NCBI GenBank assembly: GCA_020355945.1
Contig: CP070627.1
Span: 8,685,106 to 8,693,955 of the forward strand
Source: Candidatus Aminicenantota bacterium
Lineage (GTDB): Bacteria; Acidobacteriota; Aminicenantia; UBA2199
Direction: 5' to 3'
DNA: 8,850 nucleotides
The position numbers and the translations under genes were made by a program. This document shows positions 1-5,149 of the stretch, one piece after another (positions within the stretch are counted from its first letter, which is position 1; each line of letters opens with the position of its first letter). The notes below the pieces were generated by a model. It worked only from the letters and a program-made list of their open reading frames with translations, was not told the DNA's origin and searched no databases.

Positions 1-4
1 AATT

Positions 5-93
5 CCCCTCTTGAGAGGGGTGGCCCGAAGGGCCGGGGTGTGTCTCCCCTCTTGAGAGATAGTGGCGGTGGACGCGAAGCGGCCGGAGTGTGA
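5..93. repeat. Two degenerate copies of a hairpin-rich intergenic repeat
   Basis: The first copy (about 5-43) contains CCCCTCT/AGAGGGG arms (5-11 and 14-20), followed by a second hairpin GGCCC-GAA-GGGCC (22-34) and GGGGTGTGT. The second copy (about 46-93) starts with the same CCCCTCTTGAGAG, has lost the closing GGGG arm, keeps a CGC-GAA-GCG hairpin (73-81) and ends in GGAGTGTGA. The shared order of boxes shows that they are copies of one element. Similar CCCCTCTTGAGAGGGG elements occur between genes in many environmental genomes, which is general recollection and was not searched. No coding potential is seen. Confidence 0.65.
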
Positions 94-196
94 CATTCAG
101 ACATTCGTGTCAGGCAAAGTTTTTTAATAATTAGGGTGCCCTCGCCGGGGATCTGAGTTTTTTTCATAAAAAATTAGTTTTTTCAAACTTTTCCCC

Positions 197-225
197 TTGA
201 CAATTTAGTTTTCTTCATATAAAAT
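197..225 (+). promoter_or_regulatory. Sigma70-like promoter for the exported-protein/permease operon
   Basis: TTGACA (197-202), a 17-bp spacer and TAAAAT (220-225) form a near-consensus promoter. Transcription would start near 232, leaving a leader of only about 13 nt. An AGGAGG ribosome binding site (234-239) lies inside that leader, 5 nt before the ATG at 245. Confidence 0.7.
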
Positions 226-244
226 ATGAAACCAGGAGGATTAA

Positions 245-877
245 ATGATAAAAATTAATATTTTTGCAGCGGTTTTGTTGATTGTTTTTAGTCTTAATTT
301 GCACCCTCTTATCGATATGAATGATATCGTCCCGGTTTTTCCCGGTGAGAAACAGGTGCAAATCGAAGGTGCGGTTATTGAAGGAGCCATTCATTTTTTG
401 GAAGCCCAATCTTTTGCCAGCCTCTTACTGGAAGAAATTGAAAAGTCGGCTCAACAACCCCTGGATTATCCGTCAGCGTTGGCGTATGCTGAAAAAGCCG
501 TCATTGAAGTGGAAAAATCAATCCATGAATACGACCGAGCAATTTCAGCCGGCAAACAAGTGGGTTATGTGAATGAGGTGATTCAAAAATTTAAAAATTT
601 CGATTACGATGCTTTTGCCTCTGACAAAGGATTAAACAGGGATATCATGACAGTGGTCAAAGCCTATTTCACCGGGGGTAATATCCTGGGCGCTTACCAG
701 CAGCGGTTGGAACACCTGGGCGATATCCTGGTCACGCTTCATCAAATCAAGGAAAAGTTGACTGATCGCCAATCACCGGATATTTCACTGGCCTGGAAGT
801 TGTTTCAACGGTTTTCCGAAGCTTCACTTTTTGGGAATTACTGCACCGTAACCGCAAATGCGGTTTTTGAACGATAG
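245..877 (+). CDS. Exported helical protein of unknown function, first gene of the permease operon
   Basis: I do not recognise the family. The 210-aa product begins with a short basic end and a hydrophobic stretch (about residues 5-20, FAAVLLIVFSL) that looks like a signal peptide or N-terminal anchor. The rest is predominantly helical and charged, with no cysteine-based lipobox and no known catalytic motif visible. The start is well supported by AGGAGG with a 5-nt gap and a promoter just upstream. Its last 20 bases overlap the longest reading frame of the ABC-type permease at 858, and its stop codon lies 5 nt before the alternative permease start at 882. The two genes are therefore probably translationally coupled. 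The inference is that it is an extracytoplasmic partner of the permease. Its base composition matches its neighbours. Function is unknown. Confidence 0.75.
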   Translation: MIKINIFAAVLLIVFSLNLHPLIDMNDIVPVFPGEKQVQIEGAVIEGAIHFLEAQSFASLLLEEIEKSAQQPLDYPSALAYAEKAVIEVEKSIHEYDRAISAGKQVGYVNEVIQKFKNFDYDAFASDKGLNRDIMTVVKAYFTGGNILGAYQQRLEHLGDILVTLHQIKEKLTDRQSPDISLAWKLFQRFSEASLFGNYCTVTANAVFER

Positions 878-2816
878 GAACATGGCTGCCATTTTTCTAT
901 TCGATATTAAGCGGGTCTTCAATATAAAGAATATCCTTATATTCTTACTTTTTTTTTCCCTCAGCCTATATGCTGTATATTACGGAACCACCAAGTTTGA
1001 CGATTTCCTGGATGAAGAAGGTAATTTTTCCAACTATGAAAAACTGAAAATCAAACAGTATATCAATTATGAACAATATGGTTCCTTTGGTTTCCGGGTG
1101 TTTTTGCAGCCCTCGCCCTTGAGTATTTTTTGTCACTCCTCGCTCTTGCCCATTGAAAGCAATATCAACACAAAAGAAATTTTAAATATCAATTCCGTTC
1201 ATAAAGGACAAAAAATATTCAATGCTAACGGGAGGGTGGGCGATTTTTCCACTGTTTTTTTTGTATTGGCCAGCATGCTGATGATGTATTTCGGGCTGAA
1301 TACCTTTATCAGTGTCGCTTCTATCTGGTTTCACGGCACCAAAAAATACATTTTTGCTGCCATATGTTCACGATTCATCATTTTAGCTGCATATTTCTCA
1401 CTGGTTATAGTGGCAGCTTTTCTCACGGCAAAATTACTGGGTGCCCCTCTATCCGGGAAAGACGCCGGTATTTTCTTTCAATACTTCTTCTATGTCATGC
1501 TGTTCATCACATTTTTCTATTGCCTGGGAATTTTCCTGGCGGTCATGTTTCGGTTTAATAAAGTATTTATGATAAGTGCTTACCTGGTATGGTTCATTAT
1601 TATATTCGGTATTCCCTTGATTTCCAATATGAACCTGGAAAAAAGAGCCAAACGGATTAAGTCCAATGAGATCGTAAATATCGAAAAATTAAACAACGGT
1701 AAGGATTTTGAAAGAAAAACCGAAGCGTACTTTAAAGATTTACAGGAGAAAAAAGTAAAGGATATTCGGCCCATTGCCAAAAAATTTGTCCGGGAGTATA
1801 TCGAAAAGATATTACCCTTAAACACTGCCATTGAAGCCAATTTGAACCGGGAAGTCAAACAGTTAATTACCCGTCATGAAGAGCACAGCGTAATTTGGCC
1901 TTCCTCGTTTTATTGTTTTATGTCCAGGGAGTTTTCCAGTATGGGCTATTACGGGTACCAGGAATTTCTCACCTACATCCTACGGTTAAAAGATGAATTT
2001 TACCATTATTATTTTGATAAACGATACAATCGAATCGATCAAACCGTGGAACCCTTTATAAAGAACGATGAAAATATTTTCCGGTCTAAAAGCCTTTTAC
2101 CCGTTAATTACTGGAAGGGGGTGTCAATCATCTGCCTTTATTCGCTTTTACTATTAGGGGGAACCCTGGTGGGACTGCTGCGGATGTTGAAACCTCGCCA
2201 GAGTAATCAACGGGTTAAATTGGATATCAATCAATTGGAGTTGGGTAAGGCCTATTTTTACCTCTCCCGGAATGTTCCCCCGGGACAAAAGAGTGGCATG
2301 CTCCATTATTTAAAATCCCATCAGGCGGTGGTCATTGAAAAACCGGACCCCACCTGGTATGATCCCGGGACATCATTAAAGGCATGGGTCCGGCTTGAAT
2401 CACACCTGAAAGGGATCGATTCTCATATTCTTCGCCAATACCTGGAAGCCCTGGGGATTACCGAAGATCGATTAAAGCAAAAGATAAAAAAACTGGATAA
2501 TGAAGAGTTTTACGCGGCTTACCTGGGAATCCGCCTGGCACAAAATGCAGCGATGTATGTATTCGATGATTTTTTAAATTGCGTTTCCAGGGAATTTGAG
2601 CAAACCTTCAAAAAAGCCCTTGATAAACTCAAACCCCATACGGTTATTATCTATTTTAGCAGCCAGATGTTTGATATCAGGGCGAAAGAAAAAAACAAGT
2701 CCCGGAACCGGAACCAGGTCTTTACGGATTTCACGTCTACGGCTGATACGGATAGGCAAGATACGCAAGAATGCCGTTTTGTAGCAGTAGACCTCAACGA
2801 TATTACATTGAGGTGA
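858..2816 (+). CDS. ABC-2-type permease fused to a degenerate ABC ATPase-like domain
   Basis: The 652-aa protein has about six hydrophobic segments (roughly residues 20-42, 132-153, 166-192, 205-232, 236-256 and 421-441) and two large loops (43-131 and 257-420), the topology of ABC-2-type export permeases. After the last segment, residues about 454-610 follow the order of an ABC nucleotide-binding domain with most key residues replaced. The Walker A region reads NVPPGQKSG (472-480), the signature position LDNEE (546-550) instead of LSGGE, Walker B MYVFDDF (566-572) with Asp for the catalytic Glu, and the H-loop position SSQ (601-603) instead of SSH. It probably does not hydrolyse ATP in the canonical way. 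The tail 610-652 is basic, then polar. The start could be 858, or 882 (MAAIFLFDIKRV), which looks more like typical permease N-termini. Neither has a well-spaced ribosome binding site, so coupling to the upstream gene is likely. No intact ATPase gene lies in the window. Confidence 0.82.
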   Translation: MRFLNDRNMAAIFLFDIKRVFNIKNILIFLLFFSLSLYAVYYGTTKFDDFLDEEGNFSNYEKLKIKQYINYEQYGSFGFRVFLQPSPLSIFCHSSLLPIESNINTKEILNINSVHKGQKIFNANGRVGDFSTVFFVLASMLMMYFGLNTFISVASIWFHGTKKYIFAAICSRFIILAAYFSLVIVAAFLTAKLLGAPLSGKDAGIFFQYFFYVMLFITFFYCLGIFLAVMFRFNKVFMISAYLVWFIIIFGIPLISNMNLEKRAKRIKSNEIVNIEKLNNGKDFERKTEAYFKDLQEKKVKDIRPIAKKFVREYIEKILPLNTAIEANLNREVKQLITRHEEHSVIWPSSFYCFMSREFSSMGYYGYQEFLTYILRLKDEFYHYYFDKRYNRIDQTVEPFIKNDENIFRSKSLLPVNYWKGVSIICLYSLLLLGGTLVGLLRMLKPRQSNQRVKLDINQLELGKAYFYLSRNVPPGQKSGMLHYLKSHQAVVIEKPDPTWYDPGTSLKAWVRLESHLKGIDSHILRQYLEALGITEDRLKQKIKKLDNEEFYAAYLGIRLAQNAAMYVFDDFLNCVSREFEQTFKKALDKLKPHTVIIYFSSQMFDIRAKEKNKSRNRNQVFTDFTSTADTDRQDTQECRFVAVDLNDITLR

Positions 2817-2838
2817 ACCGAGACCTTTTACATTGTAA

Positions 2839-2909
2839 AGAACCCGGGTTCGCTTCGTTACGTATTACCTAGATCGATGATCGATTGTGAACGAAGCGAA
2901 CCGGGTTCT
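2839..2909. repeat. Long inverted repeat between convergent genes, possible bidirectional terminator
   Basis: The left arm (2839-2859) and right arm (2890-2909) are complementary over 20 bp with a single bulged base in the ACCCGGG box. The 30-nt loop contains two ATCGAT palindromes (2873-2878 and 2880-2885). The element sits between the stop of the permease gene (2816) and the stop of the convergent 137-aa gene (2915). Neither side has a proper T-run, so intrinsic termination is uncertain. A Rho-independent-like role, mRNA 3' protection or a repeated element are all possible. Confidence 0.6.
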
Positions 2910-2914
2910 ATATT

Positions 2915-3328
2915 CTATTTTACCATGATATTGGAATAGGGGAGGATTCTCAGGAAGAAATCATCCAGTACTGTTTTTCTCAAAGCCTGGTGGTTTTTAA
3001 AATAATCCATAAAAATTCGCACCTGTTCCTCTTCCGGGGCATACCTGTACCCGGAGGCATCAACAATCTTAATAATGGTTGACGTTGACACACTGTCATC
3101 GGCAATGCTGCTACTGCTGCTTGATGTTTCTTTTTCGGGAATGTTTTTAAAAGGTATGGGAAAGCGGATAATATTCGAGGTCTCCGACTCTTCCCATTGG
3201 TTTTCCGCGCTTTCTTTGAGTTTGTTTTTAAATATCAAGCGAAGTTCAACAAATTTTGCCGCTATAATCTGTTGAACCTCAGGGATTGCCATCAATCGAT
3301 TGATTTCGGATCGCGAGATTCCCTTCAT
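2915..3328 (-). CDS. 137-aa protein of unknown function sharing a module with the neighbouring XRE regulator
   Basis: No known family is recognised. Residues 8-44 (beginning EINRLMAIP and containing AAKFVELRLIFK) align without gaps to residues 130-166 of the XRE regulator upstream (numbered from its longest reading frame), with 17 identities in 37 positions by my count. This copy has no HTH domain in front. A serine-rich linker (69-74 is six Ser, then more Ser/Thr) separates this module from a C-terminal region (about 85-137) that ends in hydrophobic and aromatic residues (LDDFFLRILPYSNI). The start at 3328 is preceded by GGGGG at 6 nt, a weak ribosome binding site, and by an AT-rich promoter. 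No in-frame HTH remnant is seen upstream. It could be a partner that dimerises with the regulator through the shared module, or a decayed or rearranged paralog. Expression is probably independent of the regulator gene, given the 333-bp gap. Confidence 0.72.
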   Translation of the reverse strand: MKGISRSEINRLMAIPEVQQIIAAKFVELRLIFKNKLKESAENQWEESETSNIIRFPIPFKNIPEKETSSSSSSIADDSVSTSTIIKIVDASGYRYAPEEEQVRIFMDYFKNHQALRKTVLDDFFLRILPYSNIMVK

Positions 3329-3353
3329 GAAAAACCCCCATATATATATTTTT

Positions 3354-3382
3354 TTATTACATATATTTCATATATTTGTAAA
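3354..3382 (-). promoter_or_regulatory. Candidate promoter for the 137-aa gene
   Basis: On the minus strand, TTTACA (3382-3377), a 17-bp spacer and TAATAA (3359-3354) lie just upstream of the ATG at 3328, giving a start site near 3347 and a leader of about 19 nt. The region is extremely AT-rich, so chance matches are easier here. Confidence 0.4.
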
Positions 3383-3533
3383 TAATTCCTGTTATTTTTC
3401 ATCTTTTTCTTCCTTGATAACAATATAACTCATTTTGATTTAAAATGCAACCCCATAAATGAAGAAAATACAAATTTTCACTGAGAAACAGCAAAACCAC
3501 GAAACCGCGGCTTATCTGCGCTGCGGTGCATCC

Positions 3534-3568
3534 TTGCACATTGCACATTGCACATTGCACCTTGCGCC
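3534..3568. repeat. TTGCACA heptamer tandem array (5 units)
   Basis: Three exact TTGCACA units (3534-3554) are followed by TTGCACC and TTGCGCC in the same register. This is a non-coding short tandem repeat with a strict 7-bp period. Confidence 0.85.
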
Positions 3569-3629
3569 ATCTCCACTATCACCATGTTATGAAAAGCAAG
3601 AGCATTGACCCTGTGGTTCTGTGGTTCCA

Positions 3630-3664
3630 GGTCATACGTCATACGTATTACAAATTACGTATTA
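3630..3664 (-). repeat. TAATACG/TATGACG heptamer array at the 3' end of the XRE gene
   Basis: Read on the minus strand from 3664, the units are TAATACG, TAATTTG, TAATACG, TATGACG and TATGACC: five heptamers in register. The first unit contains the TAA stop codon (3664-3662) of the XRE regulator. Confidence 0.7.
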
Positions 3665-4165
3665 TTTTTTTACCCTGGCTTGTTCTGCTTTTTTTTCTTT
3701 TTCACGTTTTTTCTTTTCCTGGTTTTTTAGAAATTTTTTAACCTGTTCCTTGAATATGATCTTACATTCGCTTAACTTAGCGAATATCACCTGCTCGATA
3801 ACGGGGATTTGCATCAATGAATTGAGTTCCTGGTAATTGTCATAGGTTGGTTCGCCGTATTTCACGTGAGGGGCCATGATGCGGGAGGCATTTTTCTTTT
3901 CAGCGCTCTCTAAATACATGTTCTCCTCCCCGGTTACCAGCCAATTCAGGTTTAAATCATATTTTTCATAAAAATAATGAAGATAATTCACCTTGGGAAA
4001 AGTAGTCCCGTTTTCGATATTGGTGATAGTGGATTGATGGACCTTTAATTCTGACGCCAATATTCTCTGCGCCTTTTTTTTGTCTGAGCGAAACTTCCTA
4101 AACCGTCCGCCAACTTCTTTTTTTAAATCTTTGAGGGTAGTGGGTTTTTTTTTCATTTGTTTCAT
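3662..4165 (-). CDS. XRE-family HTH transcriptional regulator
   Basis: This is a Cro/C1-type helix-turn-helix DNA-binding protein. Counting from the longest possible start (4216, 184 aa), the HTH domain covers about 36-97: a first helix around GGRFRKFR, then LASELKVHQSTITNIENG as the helix-turn-helix, and NLNWLVTGE, a phrase common at the end of phage-repressor-like HTH domains. Residues 127-166 form a module shared with the 137-aa protein downstream, and the C-terminus (about 160-184) is strongly basic. No peptidase or ligand domain is visible. I place the start at 4165 (MKQMKKKPTT), because the longer version only adds a Lys/Arg-rich stretch overlapping a 52-aa frame. ATGs at 4156 and 4216 are alternatives, and none has a clear ribosome binding site. 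Likely targets are its own promoter and the divergent promoter at 4617-4645. Confidence 0.88.
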   Translation of the reverse strand: MKQMKKKPTTLKDLKKEVGGRFRKFRSDKKKAQRILASELKVHQSTITNIENGTTFPKVNYLHYFYEKYDLNLNWLVTGEENMYLESAEKKNASRIMAPHVKYGEPTYDNYQELNSLMQIPVIEQVIFAKLSECKIIFKEQVKKFLKNQEKKKREKEKKAEQARVKK

Positions 4166-4172
4166 CGTTTTT

Positions 4173-4331
4173 TTATTTTTGTTGACCCTTCCCAGGGGCC
4201 TTATACTTTTGTCCATTGGTCAGGCTGTACACATGAATATCCGTATGGAACCGCACACGCGTTTGTACATCTACAACCGCGACAACCACGGCTGGTGTAT
4301 GACAGCCATCAAGATTAAATATCGTCTTCAT
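4173..4331 (-). CDS. Possible 52-aa small protein upstream of the XRE gene
   Basis: An ATG at 4331 opens a 52-codon frame (starting MKTIFNLDGCHTPAVVVAVV, ending with GKGQQK) that stops with TAA at 4175-4173, 7 nt before the ATG at 4165 of the regulator. The stretch is visibly less AT-rich than its surroundings, as expected of coding DNA here. The middle part is valine-rich with alternating hydrophobic residues, suggesting beta strands. A minus-strand promoter ends 7 nt upstream, so the message would be essentially leaderless; no ribosome binding site is present. I do not recognise the protein. It could instead be an untranslated leader or a decayed gene. Confidence 0.4.
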   Translation of the reverse strand: MKTIFNLDGCHTPAVVVAVVDVQTRVRFHTDIHVYSLTNGQKYKAPGKGQQK

Positions 4332-4819: not shown

Positions 4820-5149
4820 ATGGAGATTCTCACTTATGAAGCAAAAGAACAAACAATGGTTCAAGAAAAAGAAGCAAAAACAATATCTATATTGATCAAT
4901 TCAATTTATTTTTTTATTGAATGTGTATTCATTTTAGACTTCCCCGATCACTATCGGTTGGTGGTGCTTCAGCATGGTCGGGTGCTAAAAGATGCCCGGT
5001 ATAAGACCCTCAGGGGGGCAAAGATCGCATTTTCAAATGCCTACAGGAAAAAGGCCTGGAAAGAAGGAATGAAGCCTCAGTGGAGCCATTTCTATGATCC
5101 TGATAAACCATGGCTGGATAAAAAGATAAAAGACATTAGAGCAGTGTAG
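4820..5149 (+). CDS. 109-aa protein of unknown function
   Basis: The start is secure: GAGGAGGT (4807-4814) lies 5 nt before the ATG, with a strong promoter further upstream. The N-terminal third (about 1-40) is charged and then hydrophobic (SILINSIYFFIECVFIL, about 23-39). The rest is a compact basic region (DHYRLVVLQHGRVLKD, then TLRGAKIAFSNAYRKKAW, then WSHFYDPDKPWLDKK) that looks like a small folded domain with conserved-looking aromatics. I do not recognise the family. The hydrophobic part could be a core strand-helix rather than a membrane span. The gene is first after the putative XRE-controlled promoter, so it is the best candidate target of that regulator. Its TAG stop is part of a heptamer repeat array. 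Confidence 0.8.
   Translation: MEILTYEAKEQTMVQEKEAKTISILINSIYFFIECVFILDFPDHYRLVVLQHGRVLKDARYKTLRGAKIAFSNAYRKKAWKEGMKPQWSHFYDPDKPWLDKKIKDIRAV

Follow-up and report, generated by a model that had tools for sequence, protein, structure and literature searches.

The window, i.e., the whole stretch of 8,850 nucleotides analyzed here, carries an open frame for an ABC-2-type permease with a fused C-terminal pseudo-nucleotide-binding domain (pseudo-NBD), together with genes for an upstream partner (UP), a protein termed MAI, an XRE-type helix-turn-helix (HTH) regulator and a further ORF, ILI (Table 1). The start of the fused protein is uncertain, as most of its relatives start near the ATG at position 882 of the window. 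Within the permease part, the helical domain (~residues 270-405) is presumably extracytoplasmic. On inspection by eye, a long and nearly perfect inverted repeat, GAACCCGGGTTCGCTTCGTT with its complement, occupies ~2840-2910, in the gap where the fused and MAI genes converge; it is possibly a bidirectional terminator. The MAI and HTH proteins of the window have a common C-terminal stretch of the IPEVQQII/IPVIEQVI type, and such genes recur beside the cassettes described below. ILI recurs near some of these cassettes and gave no Pfam match over the cut-off.

Table 1. Genes and features of the window (positions and strand refer to the window)
Feature	Position	Strand	Remarks
UP, upstream partner, 210 aa	245..877	+	N-terminal hydrophobic segment, then helical bundle; recurrent cassette member
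Fused ABC-2 permease/pseudo-NBD	858..2816	+	Open frame, 652 aa; start alternatively 867 or 882
Permease part	882..2195	+	Transmembrane helices and helical domain
Pseudo-NBD, residues 448-652	2199..2813	+	ABC ATPase core; P-loop-to-Q-loop stretch shortened
Former Walker A site, SRNVPPGQKSG	2265..2297	+	Without GxxGxGK[ST]; placed via close relative L001
Former signature motif, LDNEE	2493..2507	+	Counterpart of FSKGM in the intact family
Former Walker B, FDDF	2562..2573	+	Aligned to LDEP; Asp at the catalytic Glu position
Former H-loop, SSQ	2658..2666	+	Without His; register unsure by one residue
MAI, 137-aa protein	2915..3328	-	Recurs beside fused cassettes
XRE-type HTH regulator	3662..4216	-	PF12844 HTH_19, 1.4e-9, over cut-off
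ILI, 109-aa ORF	4820..5149	+	18 matches in the loci searched; cassette membership unsure

UP is a predicted exported helical protein of ~210 aa, and its structure model has a pLDDT of 95.3. Comparison of UP with the PDB yielded no fold match at E ≤ 0.001 and no profile match below 0.069; chemoreceptor-like helical-bundle matches were too weak to use, and a PADLOC match of UP to a JetA model was weak as well (E 6.5e-4, 49 residues). PADLOC gave no convincing defence match, with the HTH gene of the window matching HTH models, and a plasmid search returned no match. Of the 62 permease ORFs of the family, 46 have a UP homolog encoded on their strand in the 3.5 kb upstream, a count in which one locus (L013/L092) enters twice and some of the misses fall at contig ends. 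Tandem UP genes, or pieces of them, were seen near one permease at L048, L052, L055, L056, L059, L060, L082, L086, L096 and L115.

Homology and fold of the C-terminal domain

Pfam and NCBIfam searches with the single window sequence gave no match over a cut-off, ABC families included. PF12679 was likewise not matched by the window protein; it was matched over the cut-off by the relatives L004, L011, L067, L085 and L096, and not by L001, P0023, P0045 and L056. By profile comparison, similarity of the domain to ABC ATPases was significant, both for the fused domains and for the degenerate NBDs that other family members encode as a separate gene. More specifically, the fused profile (A3) matched the separate-form profile (A4) at 98.8% (E 4e-17) and an intact NBD profile (A8) at 91.9% (E 6.8e-7), with two unrelated control profiles scoring 0.3% each. 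The top PDB sequence match of the fused profile was the ABC ATPase 1sgw (E 7.9e-5), and the separate-form profile reached 2.9e-10 against the PDB, with 212 sequences at E ≤ 1. This chain of homology, running from fused to separate to intact NBDs, together with the direct match of the fused to the intact profile, supports an ABC-transporter ancestry. In the structure model, the C-terminal domain has an ABC ATPase fold and occupies the usual place of an NBD under the permease, which itself has an ABC-2 (ABCA/ABCG-like) fold.

At the level of motifs, the profile-profile alignment placed LDNEE on FSKGM and FDDFLNCVS on LDEPTAGLD of the intact family, in register, and PPGQKSG falls at the P-loop site, where the close relative L001 has SRDPKQKNG. 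At the H-loop, SSQ pairs with STH, and hence Q with His, when the domain is aligned directly with the intact family, and an alignment routed via the separate genes shifts the His column to the second Ser; in both cases the window protein lacks a His. An initial annotation of this DNA had proposed an ABC-2 permease with a fused, catalytically degenerate NBD, a reading borne out by the profiles, the structure model and the relatives: the fold modeled for the C-terminal residues is that of ABC ATPases rather than an unrelated one, the Walker B and signature regions align with those of intact ABC NBDs, and the four altered motifs (LDNEE, FDDF, SSQ and PPGQKSG) are all present where it had described them. 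The order and spacing of an ABC NBD that it recognized over residues ~454-610 also hold, but the domain extends beyond that end to residue 652, with residues 610-637 modeled at low confidence.

Loss of the nucleotide site across the family

Walker A, an LSGG-like signature, the catalytic Glu and the H-loop His, i.e., the features of a competent ABC ATPase, are all absent from the window protein. The initial annotation had framed this as a single altered protein; the NBD is degenerate, but far from being a one-off, degeneration is the rule in the family. The close full-length members share the altered motifs of the window (C-domain consensus LDxE, VFDDFL and YxGSxMFDI), and motif loss is family-wide. 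GxxxxGK[ST] was present in 0/50 different fused proteins encoded at the loci retrieved, 0/57 fused database proteins and 0/120 separate homologs (sets that overlap in part), and for seven further loci from a class-wide search (L110-L116) none of the permease and NBD frames listed had a Walker A match.

To count motif columns, 7 intact and 7 separate domains were aligned with 50 fused ones. The signature Gly occurs in 2/50 fused, 0/7 separate and 7/7 intact domains, the catalytic Glu in 6/50, 0/7 and 7/7, respectively, and the H-loop His in 0/57 degenerate versus 6/7 intact domains; with the register shifted by one residue, a His is found in 1/50 fused locus proteins and in 3/57 fused database proteins (P0015, P0016 and P0018). 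A GxxGxG loop at the P-loop site was found in none of the 57 aligned degenerate domains. The Walker A Lys column holds Lys or Arg in 29/50 fused domains, without the glycines, and Asp stands at the catalytic Glu position in 29/50 fused and 5/7 separate domains (34/57). Nine regular-expression matches to the signature motif were discarded as false, being located elsewhere (residues 8-57). The degenerate NBD of P0045, which is fused and distantly related (25% identity), retains, by eye, the P-loop-to-Q-loop stretch that is shortened in the window lineage. Judged from the sequences and the structure model, ATP binding and hydrolysis have probably been lost in the family.

Gene arrangement, distribution and neighbors

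An alignment of 26 members comprises full-length proteins of ~610-660 aa and short ones of ~445 aa that end before the C-terminal domain. Within a set of 14 loci, at all seven short-permease loci with downstream DNA (L014, cut before the NBD position, was excluded), the degenerate NBD is a gene of its own directly after the permease. In the permease tree, 63 cassette permeases stand apart from 10 outgroup permeases (support 100/100), and true separate forms occur in both main clades, L012 in one and nine in the other (L013 and L076, cut by contig ends, were not counted as separate forms). Thus, fusion or splitting occurred more than once. Since the separate NBD genes are degenerate too, motif loss is, on the simplest reading, older than fusion or independent of it; being common to all forms, loss of the P-loop would most simply predate the fusion or splitting events. 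In a sample of the phylum, at least 12 of 396 genomes matched at E ≤ 1e-10, six of them strongly and six weakly, match counts being lower bounds as up to three candidates were scored per genome. Three of the weak-match loci (L100, L102 and L103) carry homologous permeases beside an intact NBD, two (L101 and L104) show no such arrangement in the stretch covered, and at L105 an ABC exporter-like ORF lies upstream. For 7/7 separate pseudo-NBDs, the best match out of 7 intact NBDs was that of L100.

The separate NBD genes are under purifying selection, with a dN/dS of 0.18-0.33 in 4/4 pairs (permeases of the same four pairs, 0.19-0.21). Support for constraint on the NBD is weaker for the fused form: in near relatives, identity to the window is similar for C-domain and permease (e.g., 0.70 versus 0.68 for P0002), and among distant fused members the C-domain has diverged faster (e.g., 0.33 against 0.45 in the permease for P0030). 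For the C-domains of the window and L001, pN was 0.239 and pS was saturated (0.775), and no dN/dS ratio was drawn; their permeases were left out of the divergence comparison (frame slip). The pseudo-NBD genes of L006 and L008 are 90% identical and their permeases only 66%, a mismatch that suggests recombination or an assembly effect.

Two database searches, each scoring about 8,000 candidates, returned at least 45 and at least 38 family proteins. Of five organism names among the matches listed, four were Candidatus Aminicenantes and one was "bacterium"; the titles of 14 loci named Candidatus Aminicenantes (11) or Acidobacteria bacterium (3), and a few separate-gene homologs were named Chrysiogenia, Candidatus Binatia or Desulfovibrio, all of them metagenome bins. 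In the data here, the family is an ABC-2-type exporter lineage mainly of Aminicenantes. Profile matches numbered 33, 28, 16 and 8 in genomes of 10.4, 7.6, 5.7 and 5.2 Mb, respectively, and 2-3 in each of seven genomes of 2.1-3.1 Mb, where the counts include fragments and NBD pieces and the 11 genomes, picked for having the family, are those of relatives rather than the window's own. The cassette is multiplied in the large Aminicenantes genomes (G001, G002, G003 and G010) and single in small ones. In the class to which G008 belongs, 21/142 genomes matched the separate-NBD profile at E ≤ 1e-30. End branches of the permease tree are long (median 0.68), so that the copies seem to be old and not the product of recent transposition.

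The two arrangements have different regulatory neighbors. An HTH or MAI gene lies within 1.5 kb of 35/49 fused members, with some of the remaining 14 located at contig ends. In G001, an HTH gene lies within 1 kb of at least 14/27 permease places versus 0.9 expected under random placement, a test that ignores both that the profile was built from cassette neighbors and that the cassettes are paralogs. Beside the separate form, a kinase gene and/or a gene for an NtrC-type sigma-54 activator is convergent and within 63 bp in 15 of the 16 loci whose sequence continues downstream, all except L107 (at L093 it does not continue; Pfam domains were obtained for three pairs). Among five histidine kinases examined there, a hydrophobic segment passed the threshold in that of L012 and in none of the other four. 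L107 lacks the two-component pair; by eye, a short ORF resembling a receiver (3309-3701) follows its pseudo-NBD on the same strand, and this ORF did not match the L009 regulator at 1e-8. At L011, the ORF upstream of the cassette (1-3704) resembles, by eye and from its motifs, part of a non-ribosomal peptide synthetase.

Candidate functions and comparison with known systems

The best explanation, held with moderate confidence, is that an ABC-2-type transporter has turned into an ATP-independent receptor or scaffold, which most likely no longer pumps. Because the relatives examined likewise lack what is needed to bind and hydrolyze ATP and some genomes contain dozens of copies, another job is probable, perhaps sensing. 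Moreover, the presence of two regulator families beside the two forms, one of them with a mostly soluble-looking kinase, suggests that the complex is a membrane sensor and the pseudo-NBD its output. Under such a mechanism, the family would have lost the nucleotide site and retained the permease, the NBD fold and the NBD position under the permease; the extracytoplasmic domain of the permease and exported UP would receive a signal or ligand; the permease would pass a shape change on to the cytoplasm; and the pseudo-NBD would serve there as a docking or output module for regulators, i.e., XRE/MAI proteins in the fused form, and the kinase (mostly without a clear membrane segment) plus NtrC-type regulator in the two-gene form. 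Beside the observed homology, fold, motif loss, purifying selection on the two-gene form, cassette and neighbors, we infer signal reception and contact with the regulators. It is the gene neighborhood alone that points to sensing, and the regulator neighbors lend circumstantial support to the non-transporting sensor that the initial annotation had offered as one option; the adjoining regulators may also simply control expression of the transporter, which would yield the same gene maps. Also counting against the receptor reading are the 14/49 fused members with no HTH or MAI gene within 1.5 kb, the missing two-component pair at L107, the rapid divergence of the C-domain in remote fused members and the intact ABC ATPases that these genomes encode. 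As a tentative proposal in its fullest form, this would be a large, lineage-specific family of ATP-free, ABC-derived receptors: the NBD lineage would have lost nucleotide binding as a whole, its cassettes (UP, permease/pseudo-NBD and dedicated regulators) would have multiplied into dozens of divergent copies in a genome, and the pseudo-NBD would be an output domain docking transcription regulators or a soluble kinase.

The main alternative, which we regard as rather unlikely, is that the permease still exports by means of an intact ABC ATPase encoded elsewhere, with the pseudo-NBD as the structural half of an asymmetric dimer (the other option of the initial annotation) or with the fused protein pairing with another half-transporter. 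Relatives of the intact-family NBDs were found at E ≤ 1e-30 in 11/11 genomes, an intact NBD ORF lies in the covered DNA of 3/66 cassette loci (1.4, 3.0 and 4.2 kb from the permease in L107, L051 and L091, respectively), and there are precedents of ABC exporters with one degenerate site (PMC7544095). However, the covered DNA of the other 63/66 loci, with flanks that are short in many, contained no intact NBD ORF at a profile threshold of 1e-8, and a fused homodimer would fill both NBD seats. In the precedents, one site of the pair has degenerated and the P-loop is retained.

That the protein is an ATP-independent scaffold or a passive or ion-driven transporter, for instance one that anchors or passes on UP or a lipid without any signaling, seems unlikely; the recurrence of UP upstream of the permeases, in tandem at several loci, and the ABCA/ABCG-like permease fold agree with it, but it leaves the regulator neighbors, which belong to different gene families for each form, unaccounted for. 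Quite improbable is a domain that still binds nucleotide or another ligand in an altered way and thereby switches the permease: the Asp at the catalytic Glu position, the Lys or Arg of the Walker A column and the three proteins with a His one residue past the aligned H-loop column could be read in its favor, against which stand the absence of the GxxGxG loop from every aligned degenerate domain and a signature Gly in just 2/57. A decaying remnant without function, to which the vanished motifs and the faster divergence of the C-domain among distant relatives might point, is scarcely credible given the purifying selection on the separate NBDs, the frames that are open in 50 distinct fused proteins and the recurrence of the cassette.

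ABC proteins are defined by their use of ATP. A family in which the NBD stays in its usual position, under purifying selection and in many copies, but has no nucleotide site would set the structural and signaling roles of an NBD apart from its motor role, and the conspicuous gene expansion in large Aminicenantes genomes would be explained; the family is a natural set of NBD-dead transporters for asking what an ABC permease does without ATP. Going by sequence, the family-wide loss of the motor would be new here, and the ABC-2 architecture is known. Among the papers listed by searches of a library with few subscription journals and no preprints, there was no description of the family, and neither DUF3526 nor the motif loss returned a paper.

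Among known systems, Bce-type modules (BceAB plus the kinase BceS) also place an ABC-type transporter beside a two-component system and use the transporter as a sensor, a comparison of how the systems work only. Such modules are the subject of PMC10314905 and PMC7828314. In them, BceS sits in the membrane and BceA has ATPase activity. In the present family, by contrast, the ATPase looks dead, 4/5 kinases examined show no membrane segment, and the association is known from gene proximity. NosDFY (PDB 7o0y) differs from the window family in that NosF, part of a copper-related system, is an intact ATPase. Exporters with one degenerate site (TAP, TmrAB, CydDC and ABCB11) likewise keep a degenerate NBD or site in the complex; in these, the degenerate site is still largely preserved and has a competent partner, whereas a P-loop is present in no member of the window family examined. 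ABCA/ABCG-type (ABC-2) transporters resemble the window protein in permease fold, and ABCA also in its combination of permease and NBD; they are active ATPases and are not known to have a UP or regulator cassette. Finally, the intact ABC-2 operons at L100, L102 and L103, with one NBD and DUF3526/PF12679 permeases, have permeases homologous to those of the cassettes. They are without a UP match, the NBD precedes several permeases at L100 and L102, and they differ from the cassettes in that their nucleotide site is intact (at L102, a Cys replaces the second P-loop Gly).
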